From: Kofleriaceae bacterium
GTDB taxonomy: Bacteria > Myxococcota_A > Polyangia > Haliangiales > Haliangiaceae
DNA: 32,730 nt
Direction: 5' to 3'
Assembly (NCBI GenBank): GCA_018057825.1
Contig: JAGPCY010000061.1
Location: 1-32,730, forward strand
Shown here: piece after piece, positions 22,487 to 32,730 of the stretch
Position numbering within the stretch: position 1 is the stretch's first letter
How the letters are laid out: every line of letters begins with the position of its first letter
Program-made: the position numbers and the translations under genes
The notes under the pieces: model-generated
Database searches by the model: none
Told to the model about the DNA's origin: nothing
Seen by the model: the letters and a program-made list of their open reading frames with translations, nothing else

Positions 22487-22763
22487 CCGAGGCCGAGGCC
22501 GAGGCGGAGGCCGAGACCGAGGCCGAGGCGGAGACCGAGGCGGAGGCCGAGACCGAGGCGGAGACCGAGGCGGAGGCCGAGACCGAGGCGGAGACCGAGG
22601 CCGGAACCGGAACCGGAACCGGAACCGGAACCGGAACCGGAACCCGAGACCGAGACCGAGTCCGAGACCGAGTCCGAGACCGAGACCGAGGCCGAGACCG
22701 AGACCGAGGCCGAGGCCGAGACGGAGGCCGAGGCCGAGACGGGAGGCCGAGACCGAGGCCGAG
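22487..22763. repeat. Hexamer array GAGNCC with GGAACC sub-block
   Basis: GAGGCC/GAGACC/GAGGCG units with an uninterrupted run of GGAACC units (about 22598-22644) in the middle. The array ends exactly at the base before the stop codon of the MFS gene (22764-22766). Together with the short leader of the VWA gene it fills the whole gap 22406-22763. Confidence 0.92.
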
Positions 22764-24151: not shown

Positions 24152-24189
24152 AGACGGCCCCAGGCCGGCGCCCAACGGGGCAAGCCTCC

Positions 24190-24363
24190 GGCCTCGGTCT
24201 CGCCCTCCGCCTCGGCCTCGGTCTCGGTCTCGGTCTCGGTCTCGGACTCGGACTCGGTCTCGGACTCGGTCTCTGCCTCTGCCTCGGCCTCTGCCTCGGC
24301 TTCGGCCTCGGTCTCGGACTCGCCCTCGGCCTCGGCCTCGGTCTCACCGTCTCTGCCTCTGCC
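24190..24363. repeat. Hexamer array CTCGGN, degenerate
   Basis: CTCGGT/CTCGGC/CTCGGA units mixed with CTCTGC and CTCGCC variants, more degenerate than the other arrays. It lies between the MFS upstream region and the 3' end of the dikinase-like gene. The 61 bp from 24364 to 24424 show nothing recognisable. Confidence 0.9.
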
Positions 24364-24424: not shown

Positions 24425-26485
24425 TCAACGAAGGGCCGCGAACGGATCCGGATACGGCCGGGCCTGCTTGATGTACAGGGTCGGCGTGCCGGGGGTCAGC
24501 TCGTCGTCGAACTTGAAGTCGACCTCGAGGCCGTAGAAGCCGGTGTTGCCGGCGGCCGGACCGTAGGCGGCGCTGAACCGCTGGTGGATCGTAGCCAGCG
24601 CGGTGCCGAGGTCGTAGAGCTGACGCGCGGTCAACACGGTCGTGCCGGCCGGGATGATCGACGAGTGGGCGAGGTACGAGGTCGGCTGGTTGGGCTGGCT
24701 GTAGTAGTAGAGGAGCTGGTCGCTCTGCACGCCGGGGGGTGGCGCGACGACCTCGAACTCGCCGCCGCGCTGGACGTTGATGTAGAAGGCCGGGTCGAGC
24801 CCGGAGGCATCGAACGGGTTGGCGGTGACCGCGACGCCGTTTGCCTCCTCGGCCTCGAAGTTCGGGTGGACCAGGATCGCCATGCCGAGCGAGTGGTGGT
24901 CGACGCGGTAGTACGCGCGCTCCTCGAAGGTGCGAAACAGCCAGGCGTCGGCCCACACGTTCTTGACCGCGTCGGCGACGTCGAGCCAGTCGGCGGTCCG
25001 CCCCGAGTACGAGTTGTAGCAACCGGCGCAGGGAAAGCCGTCGAGGTCTTCGCTGTTGGAGCTCGAGCGGAAGCGCAGCTTGGCCACCCCGGGGAACTGG
25101 GCGATCTTGGCGGTCAGCGCGGCCTGGAACCCGGCGTCGAGGGGCGTCGCCATCATGTCGGCGTGGAGCGCGCGCAGCGCGGTGTCGCGGGCAAGGGCGT
25201 CGCTCTGGAAGGTCGGGTCGGCCAGGAGCGCGTCGACGCGATCGTAGAAGCCGTTCGCGCGCATGAACTGGTCGTAGAAGTAGATCGGGATCGCGAAGCC
25301 GTTCTTGATCGGCACGCCGGACGTCTGGTAGAGGACCGAGTAGTTGGCGGCCTTGCCGCCGAAGGCTCGCAGCGACGCCTTGATGACGTCGAGCAAGGTC
25401 TGGCCCCCGGTCGGCGCGGCGGTGACCGCGGCGATGTCGGTGATCTGGGTGACCGACAGATCGATCGTCGGCAGCACGATCGGCTCGGGGGCGTGGGCCG
25501 CCCACCACGCCTCGGCCTCGGCCTGGGTCGCGGGCTCGATGGTCCAGGCGTCGGCGGTCACGGTCAGCTTGGCGAGCTGGCCCTCGAGCGCGCGCAGGGC
25601 GGCGTTGGTCTGGGCGCCGCGCAGCCCCATGTTGGGCGAGCCGCGGTTGCGCGACAGCACGTTGATGTGCGACAGCGGGGTCTGGAACGCCTCGGTGATG
25701 ATGCCCTGCACGACCGAGATGTCGTTGGGCGCCGAGTCGAGCACCACGAGGTCCTGGTACGACAGGTACTCGGTCTCGAGGGCGGCGGCGGTGGTGAAGT
25801 GGACGCGGCCGTAGGCGACCCCGAGGGACAGCGGCTGGAAGTCGATGCCGGCGTAGAGCTCGTCGGTGGTGATGATCGGCACCGCGGCGGCGTCGAGGCC
25901 GGCGGCGACCGTGGTCTGGGCCTCCGACGTCGGATGAAACGCCAGGGCCGGTCCGAAGTAGGCGGCGTGCTTCACCGCCAGGAACAGCTTGGTGATCATC
26001 TCGGCCGACGCGGTGTCGTAGGGCGCCAGCTCGAGCACCCAGCGATCGGGCTGCTCGTAGTAGGTGACCGCGGCCAGGAGGAACCGACGATCGGGCGCGA
26101 AGTACTCGCTGGTGTTGAACGAGGCCAGGGACCCGACCGTCGGCAGGCCGTTGCCCGACAGGTGGGTCGAGACGTACTCGTAGTGGATCTCGAAGCGCAC
26201 CGTGTTCATGAAGTGCAGGGCGTCGCCGCCGGCCTGGTCGAGGACGACCTTGACCGACTTCGAGCCCGGCAAGGTGGCGTCGAGGGGCTGCGAGGCCAGG
26301 GCCGCGTAGTCGGCCTGACAGGTGATCGTCGCCAGGGCGTCGGGGGCCTCGCCGGCGATCTGGCAGGCGCCCTCGGTGACCTGGAACGCGTCGGGGCCAG
26401 CGTCGACGGTGACGCCGGTATCGTCGCCGCCACACGCGGCCAGCGCGACGACCACCAGCGCGCCCAGGGAGCGCAGCGCGCGCAT
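24425..26485 (-). CDS. Exported lipoprotein with dikinase-type His and PEP/pyruvate-binding domains
   Basis: 686 residues. The lipoprotein signal ends in ALAAC (Cys18) and is followed by GGDD. Residues 20-230 match no known domain I can name. A His-domain segment (268-281) reads QTPLSHINVLSRNR, like the phosphohistidine motif of glucan water dikinases and PEP-utilising enzymes; His273 is the candidate. A nucleotide-binding domain follows: FGGKAAN (375-381), NGFAIP (395-400), RFRSSSNSEDL (471-481) and a C-terminal LYIKQARPY (670-678), all standard PPDK_N landmarks. The His-before-ATP-domain order is that of glucan water dikinase rather than PEP synthase. Family members phosphorylate glucan, pyruvate or water. 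ATP is normally absent outside the cytoplasm, so the present role is uncertain. The ATG overlaps the upstream stop by 1 nt (TGATG), showing translational coupling. Confidence 0.82.
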   Translation of the reverse strand: MRALRSLGALVVVALAACGGDDTGVTVDAGPDAFQVTEGACQIAGEAPDALATITCQADYAALASQPLDATLPGSKSVKVVLDQAGGDALHFMNTVRFEIHYEYVSTHLSGNGLPTVGSLASFNTSEYFAPDRRFLLAAVTYYEQPDRWVLELAPYDTASAEMITKLFLAVKHAAYFGPALAFHPTSEAQTTVAAGLDAAAVPIITTDELYAGIDFQPLSLGVAYGRVHFTTAAALETEYLSYQDLVVLDSAPNDISVVQGIITEAFQTPLSHINVLSRNRGSPNMGLRGAQTNAALRALEGQLAKLTVTADAWTIEPATQAEAEAWWAAHAPEPIVLPTIDLSVTQITDIAAVTAAPTGGQTLLDVIKASLRAFGGKAANYSVLYQTSGVPIKNGFAIPIYFYDQFMRANGFYDRVDALLADPTFQSDALARDTALRALHADMMATPLDAGFQAALTAKIAQFPGVAKLRFRSSSNSEDLDGFPCAGCYNSYSGRTADWLDVADAVKNVWADAWLFRTFEERAYYRVDHHSLGMAILVHPNFEAEEANGVAVTANPFDASGLDPAFYINVQRGGEFEVVAPPPGVQSDQLLYYYSQPNQPTSYLAHSSIIPAGTTVLTARQLYDLGTALATIHQRFSAAYGPAAGNTGFYGLEVDFKFDDELTPGTPTLYIKQARPYPDPFAALR

Positions 26486-27291
26486 CACGGCACCAACGCG
26501 AAGCAGTAGAACCCGCCGTAGCCGCCGCCTGAGCCCACGGTGTTCGAGGTCGGATCGGGCGGGCCCATCTCGATGAGCGAGACGCCGGGTGCGCAGCCCG
26601 ACTCGATGAGCGACGACATCCACGAGTTGATCTGCCGGTTGGTGCTGTCGCGCGGCCACGAGTGCCCGACCCGGGGCTCGCCCTCGAGGGCCTCGTTGCC
26701 GGCGTTGGCGGTCCAGTCGAGGCAGGTCCGGGTCGGCCCCTCGAACTGCCCGGCGGCGTTGGCGCCGGTCAACATGTCGTGGTTGTCGACGTCACCGGTC
26801 AGGTCCGGATCGTGATTGGGGACGCCGTCCTCGTTGGGGAAGTCGTTCTTGATCGCGGCGTCGCCGTTCTGCGGGCGGATGAACATGAGGGAGGCCAGGT
26901 CCGGCGCGAGCAGGCGACCGTTGCGGTCGTACCAGGGCCCCGGGCCGATCCGATCGATCGGGTGGACGACGTTGCCGGCGCCGTCGTCGGACGCGGCCAG
27001 AAACGCCCGCCACGGCTTGCCGCCGGCGCCCGGCATCGACCGCTCGGCGATCGTCGCGCACAGCTTGTCAGCGCCGCGCAGCCCGGCGCCCGGACCGGTC
27101 TCGCCGAAGCGCAGGTCGCCGCCGAAGCCCAGCGGGTTGTTCGACAGCTCCTGCAGCGCGCGCAGGCTGGTGACGAAGAACGAGAAGTTCGGCAGGGGCG
27201 CGTCGACCGCAGCGTCGGCGGTGGCGGCGTCGTCGGAGCCGCACCCGGTGAGGGCGACGGCGGTGGCACAGGCGAGGACGGTTCGGCGCAT
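26485..27291 (-). CDS. Lipoprotein with endostatin/C-type-lectin-like domain
   Basis: 268 residues. The lipoprotein signal ends in LTGC (Cys17), then an Asp/Ala-rich tether. The rest resembles the collagen NC10/endostatin fold, a C-type-lectin-type domain: GLRGADKLC near residue 71, WRAFLAASDDGAG, RIGPGPWYDRNGRLL, HDMLTGANAAGQF, TCLDW, and a final YGGFYCFAL. Conserved Cys at the family positions suggest two disulfides. Bacterial members are thought to bind ligands at the cell surface; none are known enzymes. The gene is in an operon: 86 nt follow the upstream lipoprotein gene, and its stop overlaps the dikinase-like start. GAGG lies about 4 nt before the ATG. Confidence 0.72.
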   Translation of the reverse strand: MRRTVLACATAVALTGCGSDDAATADAAVDAPLPNFSFFVTSLRALQELSNNPLGFGGDLRFGETGPGAGLRGADKLCATIAERSMPGAGGKPWRAFLAASDDGAGNVVHPIDRIGPGPWYDRNGRLLAPDLASLMFIRPQNGDAAIKNDFPNEDGVPNHDPDLTGDVDNHDMLTGANAAGQFEGPTRTCLDWTANAGNEALEGEPRVGHSWPRDSTNRQINSWMSSLIESGCAPGVSLIEMGPPDPTSNTVGSGGGYGGFYCFALVP

Positions 27292-27377: not shown

Positions 27378-28361
27378 TCAGCCGCAGGTGAGGTCCGACT
27401 GGCAGGTGGCGGGCGGCGTGCAGTCCTCGTCGCCATCGCACGAGATCACGCCGGGCACCGTGACCGGGCGCTCGATCTCGGAGCCGATCATCAGGTCGAC
27501 TCGGCCGGCGGTGGTGAGCGCGCTGCCGACCGCGCGGCGCTCGAGGATCACGGTCGGGAACCCGGCGGCGCCGAGGTCGAGGAGCTCGGTCACCATGGCC
27601 GCGCTCAGGGTCAGCGCGCCGTCGTCGGCGGTGGTGCACTCGATCTTGCCCTTGCTGCCGCCGTGGTGGCTGATGTCGAGCTTGAGGAAGATCTCGGTGG
27701 CGCTGCCACCGGTCGGCGGGGTCCAGGTCAGGTCGAGGGGGGCGTCGCGGGCCAGGTCGCGATCGGGGTTGGTGACGACCAGGGGCGCGATCGCGGTGGC
27801 GCTGATCGAGAACGCCGGGGTGAAGCTCGAGCCGGTGGCGGTGATCGCGATCGTGTCGCCGGCGGCGAACCCGGGGTACGCCAGCGAGATGGTGCCGGGC
27901 ACCTGGTAGGTGCGGATCGTCGAGCTGGGGAAGACCAGGTCGAAGCTGGTCGCGCCGGTCGAGGTGCGGACGCCCGACAAGGTCACGGTGCCCACGTCCT
28001 GTTTGACCGCGTAGGGCTCGCAGGTGTTGTCCGCGACGCACACCGCGGTGCCGCCGCAGGCCGGCGTGCAGAACGGCACCCGCGGCTTGAGCAGGCGACA
28101 GTCGCCGGCGGTGGTCGCGACAACCCAGGCCACAGCCTCGGGCGGGACCTTGTCGTTGACCACGCCGACCACCGAGGTGTACGGGGGCTCAGCGTCGACC
28201 AGGCTGACCACGAAGCTGCCGACCAGGACGGCGGGATCGCCGAGCATGGCGTCGGGCCCGGGGGCATCGACCGCCGCGCCGCCGTCGTCGCCGCCACAGG
28301 CGGCCGCGGGGAGAGCGAGGGCGAGGGCGAGGGCGAAAGACAGGCAGAGGTGGTGGTGCAT
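27378..28361 (-). CDS. Hypothetical lipoprotein, first gene of the operon
   Basis: 327 residues. The signal (LCLSFALALALALPAAAC) gives Cys22, followed by GGDDGG and an Asp/Pro tether. The mature part is beta-rich and Thr/Ser-rich, with Ig-like strands such as GTISLAYPGFAAGDTIAITATG and LDLTWTPPTGGS. Cys clusters lie near the start (CTPACGGTAVC, CEPY) and at the very end (CDGDEDCTPPATCQSDLTCG), the latter like a short EGF- or DUF-type Cys motif common in myxobacterial lipoproteins. No family name can be assigned. It is the first gene of a three-gene lipoprotein operon. TAGGCG (minus strand, 28368-28373) ends 6 nt before its ATG. Confidence 0.72.
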   Translation of the reverse strand: MHHHLCLSFALALALALPAAACGGDDGGAAVDAPGPDAMLGDPAVLVGSFVVSLVDAEPPYTSVVGVVNDKVPPEAVAWVVATTAGDCRLLKPRVPFCTPACGGTAVCVADNTCEPYAVKQDVGTVTLSGVRTSTGATSFDLVFPSSTIRTYQVPGTISLAYPGFAAGDTIAITATGSSFTPAFSISATAIAPLVVTNPDRDLARDAPLDLTWTPPTGGSATEIFLKLDISHHGGSKGKIECTTADDGALTLSAAMVTELLDLGAAGFPTVILERRAVGSALTTAGRVDLMIGSEIERPVTVPGVISCDGDEDCTPPATCQSDLTCG

Positions 28362-29746: not shown

Positions 29747-30057
29747 GAGACCGAGACCGAGGCCGAGGCCGAGTCCGAGACCGAGACCGAGGCAGAGTCC
29801 GAGGCCGAGGCCGAACCCGAGACCGAGGCCGAGACCGAGGCCGAGACCGAGACCGAGGCCGAGTCCGAGACCGAGGCCGAGGCCGAGGCCGAGTCCGAGT
29901 CCGAGACCGAGGCCGCGACCGAGTCCGAGACCGAGGCCGAGGCCGAGGCCGAACCCGAACCTGAACCCGAACCCGAACCCGAACCCGAACCCGAGGCCGA
30001 GGCCGAGGCCGAGTCCGAGGCGGAGGCCGAGGCGGAGGCCGAGACCGAGGCCGAGGA
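29747..30057. repeat. Hexamer array filling a convergent gene gap exactly
   Basis: 51 consecutive hexamers in perfect phase (29747-30052) plus GAGGA. 39 are GAGNCC with N = A, G or T, never C. Most others are GAACCC-type, including a run of seven (29951-29992). The array begins directly after the TGA of the plus gene and ends at the base before the TAG of the minus gene. Confidence 0.97.
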
Positions 30058-32280
30058 CTACGGCGCGGCGGGGGCCGGGGCGGTGAGCTCGAAGTTCTCG
30101 AGGGCGTTGTCGAGCTCGACCCGGGCATCGAGGCGCTTGGCCTCGAGATCGGCGAGCTGGGCGCCGAGCTTGTTGCCTTCGGAGGCGAACTCGTCGAGCT
30201 GCCGGGTCCACTTGGCGCGCTGCTCGCCGGCCGCCGGGTTCTTGGCGATCGCGCGCAGGTTCTCGCGCAGCTCGTTGGCGCGCTGATCGAGCTGATCGCG
30301 CTTCTGGGTCAGGCCGCGGAGCTGCTCCTCGAGCTTGGCCACGGTCCGACGCAGATCGACGATGGGCTTGAGCTTGCGCTTGGCGTCGGCCGGCAGCTTG
30401 GCGTCGACCAGCAAGCGATCGAGGAGCGCGATCGCCGGCTCGTTCCAGATCGAGAGCTGGCTGCGGCTCGGGGTCTGCTCGACGACGGTGAGCTTGCCCT
30501 CGCGCTGCCCAGCCGGCACGGCCAGTCGCAGCAGGTAGGCGTTGGGCAGATCCTCGGTGCCGTCGGGGCGCGGGGTCAGGCTGTAGTTGCCGCCGGCCTT
30601 GTCGTGGCGGATGAGGGTGGTGAAGCCGCCGTCGAGGGTCAGGGCCTTGACGGTGTACGTGGTCGAGCGGCGCGAGAAGGTCTCGACCTCGAGGACGCCG
30701 CGCGACATCTTGACCAGGCGCATCTCGTCGTTGTCGTAGCCGCTGGTGGTGTTGACGATGAGGCCAGGCTCGACCGCGAACGGGATGGTCGCGCTGGTGC
30801 CGGCGCCGACCGTCTCCGACAGACCTTCGCCGACGAAGCTGCCGCCGGCGTAGATCCCGATCGGGCCGGGCTCGAGGACGAACGGCGTCGAGTTCTTGAA
30901 CCGCACTACCCGGTACGGGTTGTACGGATAGCCGGGGCCGGCGCCGCCGGGGCGGTACAGGAAGGCCTCTTCGCCCTCGACGTCGGCGTTGACGATCGCG
31001 ACCATCGTCGAGGTGCCCTCGGGCACGGTGACCCGCTCGCCCAGCTCGAAGCGGGTCTGGCCGGCGACGGTCTCGGCCCGGGCCTGGGCCACGGTCGAGC
31101 GGCGCAGGGCGTCGGCGTCGAGGGCGAGATCCTCGCGGGCGAACTCGCCGTCGTCGAAGCCGCTGGCCAATCCGCCCAGCGCGCCGGACTCGTCGGCCGC
31201 CCAGTCGGCCTCCTCGCGCTCGACCGCCGCCGAGCGGGAGCGGCCGGTCGGCCCCGAGGCCTTGGGCGCGGCCGAGGGCCGTCGAGGGGACGGCGCCGCG
31301 GCCGCCGGTGGTGGCGCCGGGGCCGGCTCGGGCAGGTAGGTGGTCTCGCCGACCGCGGCCACCGCCTGGCGCTGGATCCCGACGCCGGTCATGTCGGGGC
31401 GCTCGACCTCGCGCGGCGTGTGAAGATCGTAGCGAAACGCGATCGGCGCGCCCGAGGTCAGCGCGAGCTGGACCTGCTCCCACTCCTCGCCGCTGGTGTT
31501 GTCCACCACCGCCCAGGCCTGCAGGAGGGCCTGGCCCTTGCCGTCCTTGGGCAGCACCACGCGGTAGGTCGGCTTCCACATCGGCGCCGCGACCACGTAG
31601 CTCACCAGGAGATCGTGCGACGCCGCGCCGACCAGGCGGATCGACACCTCGACCTGCTGGAACATGCCCTCGCCGGCCGAGGCGTCGAGCGAGCGGTTGA
31701 ACTGCATCGCCAGGTCGCCGTCCTCGAGGGTCAGGCCGCGCACCGTCGACAGCTTGACCACCCGCAGGGCATCGCCGTCGAGCAAGGTCACCCGGTGATC
31801 GTTGCGCGGCGGGTGATCGTCGTGGTCGGCCGGATCGACGAGCTGCTCGACGAGCGCGATGCGGCCGTGGACGCGGCCGTCGTCGGTCGATAGCGTGACC
31901 ATGCTGCCGCGCAGGGAGTCGAGGACCTGAGCCAGGCTGCCCTGCCCCGGCCGCAGCGTCGCCAGCGCGGCGTTGGCCCAGGTCTGCGGGTCGAGGGGCA
32001 TCGACACGCTGACCGCGCGCCCGCTGGTGCGCTCGACGACGGTCAGGCTCTTCAGCAGATCGTTCACCTGATCCTTTCGGACCTTGATCGTGAGGAGATC
32101 GCCGCTGACCCGACCGGCGCGCTCGAAGTAGCCGACGCCGTTGCGGTACAGAACGACCCGATCGAGGCCGAGCGGGCTGTCGGTGGTGGGGTAGCGGAAC
32201 CGCCGATCGCCGCCGCACCCGACGAGGGTGGTGGCAGTCAGCGCAGCGACGAACAGCGACCGGCGTAGAGCGGCGGACAT
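30058..32280 (-). CDS. DUF4139 (mucoidy inhibitor A-like) lipoprotein
   Basis: 740 residues. The lipoprotein signal ends in LVGC (Cys22). The N-terminal part contains [19 protein letters not shown] and [11 protein letters not shown], typical of DUF4139/DUF4140 proteins. The central DUF4139 domain has [13 protein letters not shown] and [24 protein letters not shown] Pro/Ala/Ser-rich insert (about 305-360) splits it. The C-terminal hundred residues are a long coiled coil ([18 protein letters not shown], then [18 protein letters not shown]). The family is linked to the envelope and is named after a mucoidy inhibitor, but its molecular function is not established. The start at 32280 is set by the signal peptide and by CATGCT 6 nt upstream. 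Confidence 0.88.
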
Positions 32281-32286
32281 GCCGCG

Positions 32287-32292
32287 AGCATG
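32287..32292 (-). promoter_or_regulatory. -10-like CATGCT before the DUF4139 gene
   Basis: On the minus strand CATGCT ends 6 nt before the ATG at 32280. It is identical to the elements at 408-413 and 9731-9736. Confidence 0.35.
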
Positions 32293-32328
32293 CGACCCGG
32301 TCGGCGCCGCGTCCACTGCCGAGGACGG

Positions 32329-32370: not shown

Positions 32371-32373
<3 letters not shown>
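32329..32373 (-). pseudogene. Possible C-terminal remnant of a gene cut by a hexamer array
   Basis: On the minus strand this reads [14 protein letters not shown] and then TGA at 32329-32331. That looks like an ordinary protein end. Upstream it enters the hexamer array in a Val-Ser frame and meets TAG at 32386-32388. It may be the tail of a gene whose body was replaced or pushed away by the array, or a chance frame. Confidence 0.2.

Positions 32374-32730
<357 letters not shown>

Follow-up and report, generated by a model that had tools for sequence, protein, structure and literature searches.

The window (the whole stretch of 32,730 nucleotides analyzed here) carries, on its minus strand, a cassette of three genes, all encoding lipoproteins, in the order P0006, P0002 and, third, the dikinase-like P0001. 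The P0001 reading frame runs from an ATG at 26485 to a stop ending at 24425, and its start shares a 4-base overlap (ATGA) with the stop of the upstream gene, so that P0001 is probably translated within an operon. The encoded protein is built, in order, of a lipoprotein signal, an N-domain, a phosphohistidine swivel domain, and a PPDK_N/ATP-grasp domain:

24425..26485, minus strand: lipoprotein dikinase-like protein P0001, 686 aa (open reading frame and translation, PPDK_N match, homologs)
26432..26485, minus strand: signal peptide, residues 1-17, and lipid-accepting C18 (LAAC followed by GGD; sequence, homolog lipoboxes)
25844..26380, minus strand: N-domain, residues 36-214, likely acceptor-binding, with H101 and the C41-C56 pair (AlphaFold model, conservation, cysteine pairs)
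25481..25843, minus strand: phosphohistidine swivel domain, residues 215-335, with H273 at 25667-25669 (structural matches, PpsA alignment, conservation)
24446..25456, minus strand: ATP-grasp (PPDK_N) domain, residues 344-680 (Pfam, hhalign, structural match)
Minus strand: ATP-grasp ligand codons, K378 at 25352-25354, R473 at 25067-25069, E654/D656 at 24518-24526, Q674 at 24464-24466, R676 at 24458-24460
26485..27291, minus strand: second cassette gene P0002, 268-aa lipoprotein (weak DUF1554 similarity, neighborhoods)
27378..28361, minus strand: first cassette gene P0006, 327-aa disulfide-rich lipoprotein with no Pfam family (neighborhood, co-occurrence, conserved Cys)

The dikinase motifs named in the initial annotation are present where it had placed them, namely H273 within TPLSHINV, RSSSNSEDL at residues 473-481, and KQARPY at residues 673-678, and the His domain indeed precedes the ATP domain. 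PPDK_N (PF01326) matches P0001 with E 1.9e-20 and 73.9 bits, above the Pfam cut-off of 27, and hhalign pairs the ATP domain with that of E. coli PpsA at 99.4%. In an AlphaFold model made with nine homologs (mean pLDDT 78.5, with low confidence at residues about 550-620, within the ATP-grasp part), the ATP-grasp domain matches AMPPNP-bound RPH over 292 residues at 2.7 A, with a Z of 27.4. The positions that align on known ligands of E. coli PpsA are K378, R473, E654/D656 (the acidic pair), Q674, and R676. In RPH, Lys22, Arg117, and Thr136 are required for transfer and the Mg-contacting Glu297 is dispensable (PMC4844700); the places of the first three are taken in P0001 by K, R, and Ser, the Ser/Thr match being made by inspection of alignments. 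The modeled swivel region (pLDDT 70-95) resembles RPH (5fbu; Z 11.7 over 101 residues) and the Enzyme I N-terminal domain (1zym; Z 10.5 over 109 residues, matched by residues 215-333 of P0001). While hhalign places H273 in register with E. coli PpsA His421, the sequence match of the His domain by itself is weak (1.6% probability against one PpsA sequence), and the assignment of this domain is therefore carried by the structural match. P0001 thus contains the elements of a PPDK/PEPS/RPH-type core, comprising (i) the Lys, the Arg, the acidic pair, the Gln-x-Arg, and the carrier His, and (ii) a swiveling beta/beta/alpha His domain.

H273, K378, R473, Q674, and R676 do not vary among the aligned copies (42 of 42, then 85 of 85), and neither do E479 and D480 among the 85 homologs. 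The probability that five pre-named sites would all be invariant by chance is about 3e-8, given 21 invariant columns among 609 and ignoring relatedness. The acidic pair that would bind Mg is always D/E; at P0001 residues 654-656 (24518-24526), 80 copies have the D-x-E of the family and five have E-x-D, such that five copies differ per position. No ATP ligand, the point on which the initial annotation had staked its reading, is missing from P0001 or across the family. This conservation is a mark of selection on the site and does not establish ATP as the donor; the best reading of alignments and model is that P0001 has a PPDK_N-family dikinase core, catalytically competent by prediction.

Of the two cassette partners, P0002 resembles DUF1554 (PF07588), a resemblance only, at 18.7 bits against a cut-off of 27.5. 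In P0006, 11 cysteines (the lipid Cys and 10 besides) are each shared by at least 18 of 19 sequences. P0006 relatives adjoin a dikinase, on either side, in 18 of 26 neighborhoods. Of the 282 genomes, 61 have P0006 relatives, and in 53 of these a close dikinase is found as well (Fisher P 8e-37, uncorrected and ignoring relatedness). P0006 lies within 4 kb of 37 of the 75 close dikinases, and many of the others are at contig ends or on other contigs. P0002-family genes lie near a dikinase in about ten neighborhoods, and P0002 relatives occur in 20 of the 282 genomes, only one of which (G057) has no close dikinase. Both proteins probably bind or present the acceptor, or anchor the complex. The nearest relative, from the same genus (G281; L054:4695-8282), carries three P0002 genes in tandem, with the partner on one side of them and the dikinase on the other.

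The N-domain, which likely binds the acceptor, comprises about 180 residues that fold confidently when modeled alone (AlphaFold pLDDT 86), and its H101 is invariant in 85 of 85 copies and also kept in the Streptomyces homolog described below. It has no confident match in the PDB (best Foldseek E 0.33; best VIA Z 4.6, to PPK1, and 4.4, to the phosphohistidine phosphatase PHPT1). PPK1 and PHPT1 were rejected as relatives, since these Z values are within the chance range, as was the LolA_3 family, the sole Pfam match to the N-domains of nine homologs, at E 0.18. A domain without a confident fold match is compatible with an exported nucleotide- or metabolite-sensing protein, in which the dikinase core would bind nucleotide and switch conformation outside the cell, with no phosphate transfer to a substrate. 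Outside the cytoplasm there is normally little free ATP, and the cassette partners appear to resemble surface binding proteins, both of which would suit a sensor. A sensor would, however, need neither the carrier His nor the swivel domain, yet H273 is kept in all 85 copies with all phosphate ligands, and we consider such a role unlikely. The invariance of these phosphoryl-carrier and phosphate-contacting residues likewise disfavors the suggestion of the initial annotation that the protein had been recruited for binding.

A second alternative retains phosphotransfer, but with another donor (PEP, polyphosphate, or a phospho-metabolite) or in the reverse direction, from the phosphate of an extracellular compound to AMP. 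PPDK chemistry is reversible, and the best N-domain matches, although insignificant, are PPK1 and a phosphohistidine phosphatase. These scores do not rise above chance, however, and the nucleotide-contacting residues of P0001 are ordinary, whereas they would be free to drift if the donor were not a nucleotide; we therefore hold this alternative to be quite improbable and retain the forward, ATP-dependent dikinase.

The N-terminus of P0001 reads MRALRSLGALVVVALAAC followed by GGD, which is a lipoprotein signal with lipobox LAAC and C18, as initially annotated. Export signals were scored by regular expression and reading by eye, and a lipobox was recognized in 77 of the 82 copies examined, with a Sec/SPI-like signal in one more. 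Among the first-set homologs with intact 5' ends, these are 38 of 39 and 1 of 39, respectively, and in the further set, 39 of 43 have a lipobox, whereas the other four (L086, L087, L090, and L091) have a longer N-terminal extension ahead of the dikinase, possibly lamin-tail-like. The lipobox Cys signal of a bacterial lipoprotein is, as judged from sequence, conserved across homologs; considered for the +2 sorting rule, its +2 residues are mixed among copies (G, S, A, D, and K). From these signals we infer that P0001 is extracytoplasmic. Because the signals resemble Sec lipoprotein signals and contain no typical Tat motif, export as unfolded chains via Sec, whose substrates cross the membrane unfolded, is expected. 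Moreover, 40 of 42 copies have another Cys no more than 28 residues from C41, and the remaining two are without C41. C486 and C489 are both present in 12 copies and both absent in 30, though the 12 in question are the nearest relatives, and a single event could account for them. The cysteine pairing supports an oxidizing compartment, which disulfides would fit.

That P0001 might act in the cytoplasm, or be phosphorylated there before export, with the lipoprotein signal merely parking the protein, is in keeping with the nearest signal-less homologs, on Streptomyces plasmids, which share the architecture. It is opposed by signals in 78 of 82 copies, by the expected unfolded Sec export, by the paired cysteines, and by the export of the partners as well, and we judge it very unlikely; the earlier proposal of action before export is disfavored on the same grounds of signal type and cysteine pattern. 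The central claim of the initial annotation, an intact dikinase on an exported lipoprotein, held in every test run.

At E 1e-20, 104 of the 282 Myxococcota genomes sampled have homologs, many of them full-length. Several of the genomes are fragmented or MAG-like, and both the co-occurrence and the invariance statistics ignore phylogeny. The genome of the window holds five homologs, on contigs C33, C12, C8, C31, and C57, all with export signals, of which four are lipoboxes and that of the C57 copy is Sec/SPI-like. The C12 copy is also adjoined by a partner gene. Sampling was essentially of Myxococcota, and coverage beyond the phylum consisted of one contig scan and a plasmid tblastn. The scan of genome contigs yielded eight loci, whose titles read Myxococcota/Myxococcales or simply proteobacterium/Deltaproteobacteria MAGs, and the tblastn gave only two Streptomyces homologs and a Peptoclostridium ATP-domain match; a PADLOC search returned nothing. 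A degenerate relic or annotation artifact, with dikinase motifs by descent only, has nothing in its favor beyond the paradox itself and is already contradicted by residues that stay invariant across 85 copies, many of which share no more than about 30-50% identity with P0001, with frames open in nearly all homologs listed, so that we give it almost no credence. Since nearly all Myxococcota copies keep both the export-and-lipid-anchor signal and every catalytic residue, the alignments point to an uncharacterized family that would use ATP outside the cytoplasm.

P0001 has in common with PEP synthase and PPDK the PPDK_N domain, the phospho-His motif, and the invariant Lys/Arg/Gln/Arg, but it is without their C-terminal PEP/pyruvate region and ends about 10 residues after QARP. 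Assignment as a PEP synthase (TIGR01418) was rejected at 46.7 bits against 739.75, from the ATP domain only, and as a rifampin phosphotransferase at 43.6 bits against 999, with a differing domain order; all NCBIfam scores are far under their cut-offs (at most 57 bits, where at least 598 is required). According to the accessible text of two reports (PMC4844700, PMC12167813), RPH and HpeHI/CreHI/PpsAB resemble P0001 in their ATP-grasp (the Z of 27.4 being to RPH), swivel His domain, non-pyruvate acceptor, and ATP ligands; unlike P0001, HpeHI is split into two proteins, and that text describes no export signal for any of these enzymes. RPH is ordered as ATP-grasp, acceptor domain, and His domain, whereas in P0001 the His domain is ahead of the ATP domain, and no match was found between the N-domain and the RIF-binding domain of RPH. 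GWD and PWD have an N-region, a His domain, and an ATP domain at the C-terminus. The likeness to glucan-water dikinase initially proposed stands as an analogy of order only, the comparison with GWD having been one of domain order; no carbohydrate-binding module (CBM) was recognized among Pfam matches with E up to 1. GWD and PWD are also dikinases with a non-pyruvate acceptor (PMC7569903), but they are plastidial, whereas P0001 is a bacterial lipoprotein with an N-domain of only about 180 residues.

The Streptomyces plasmid homolog (PEP/pyruvate-binding domain-containing protein) has the same three domains in the same order and the same catalytic residues, with 28% identity over nearly the full length; unlike P0001, it has no signal peptide and no C41/C56 pair. 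Because signal-less and exported versions both retain the core, the exported branch resembles a small-molecule or glycan dikinase that has been relocated. On the two plasmids (L052:4547-9227 and L053:4541-9368), an ATP-grasp ligase-like protein, the signal-less homolog, and an MFS transporter are arranged in an operon-like manner with a PAS-domain gene divergently upstream, an arrangement that resembles a set for small-molecule biosynthesis or resistance. To our knowledge, phosphohistidine dikinases are known only as intracellular or plastidial enzymes. Our search of the open-access literature, where absence proves little, found no direct report of exported dikinases, of PEP/pyruvate-binding lipoproteins, or of extracellular ATP use by predators.

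On balance, we favor P0001 as a probable catalytically competent, membrane-anchored dikinase working outside the cytoplasm, in which phosphate would pass from exogenous ATP to H273 and on to an acceptor at the N-domain. Judging from the conserved residues, Mg-ATP would be bound in the ATP-grasp domain via K378, R473, E654/D656, Q674, and R676; the beta-phosphate would be transferred to H273 on the swivel domain, releasing AMP and Pi; and the swivel domain would then swing to the N-domain, with its invariant H101, where the phosphate would be handed to an acceptor, probably other than pyruvate. ATP supply is the strongest objection to an extracytoplasmic dikinase, and no donor-supply gene was found for it. 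The donor ATP would probably be exogenous, e.g., from lysed neighbors or prey; many Myxococcota are predators, for which ATP from lysed cells may be plentiful. More broadly, and with slightly less than even confidence, we propose that Myxococcota possess an extracytoplasmic branch of PEP-synthase-type dikinases that is lipid-anchored, disulfide-stabilized, and often encoded in a three-lipoprotein cassette, and that would use outside ATP to phosphorylate an extracellular compound or surface glycan via an undescribed acceptor domain. If true, ATP would be spent on purpose outside the cytoplasm by a family in over a third of the sampled Myxococcota genomes, with a new acceptor domain and two uncharacterized partner lipoprotein families on offer.

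Elsewhere in the window, hexamer tandem arrays (CGAGAC, CCGAGG, GCCTCG, and similar) of 27-60 copies, mostly intergenic, lie at 10518-10725, 22487-22763, 24184-24345, 29747-30056, and 32371-32730, and one sits just downstream of the P0001 gene. A 147/159-base unit is repeated in tandem at 13211-13833 (about 3-4 copies, 87-95% matches), and a 752-aa reading frame at 30058-32316 on the minus strand, whose start resembles a lipobox (LVGCGG), matches DUF4139.
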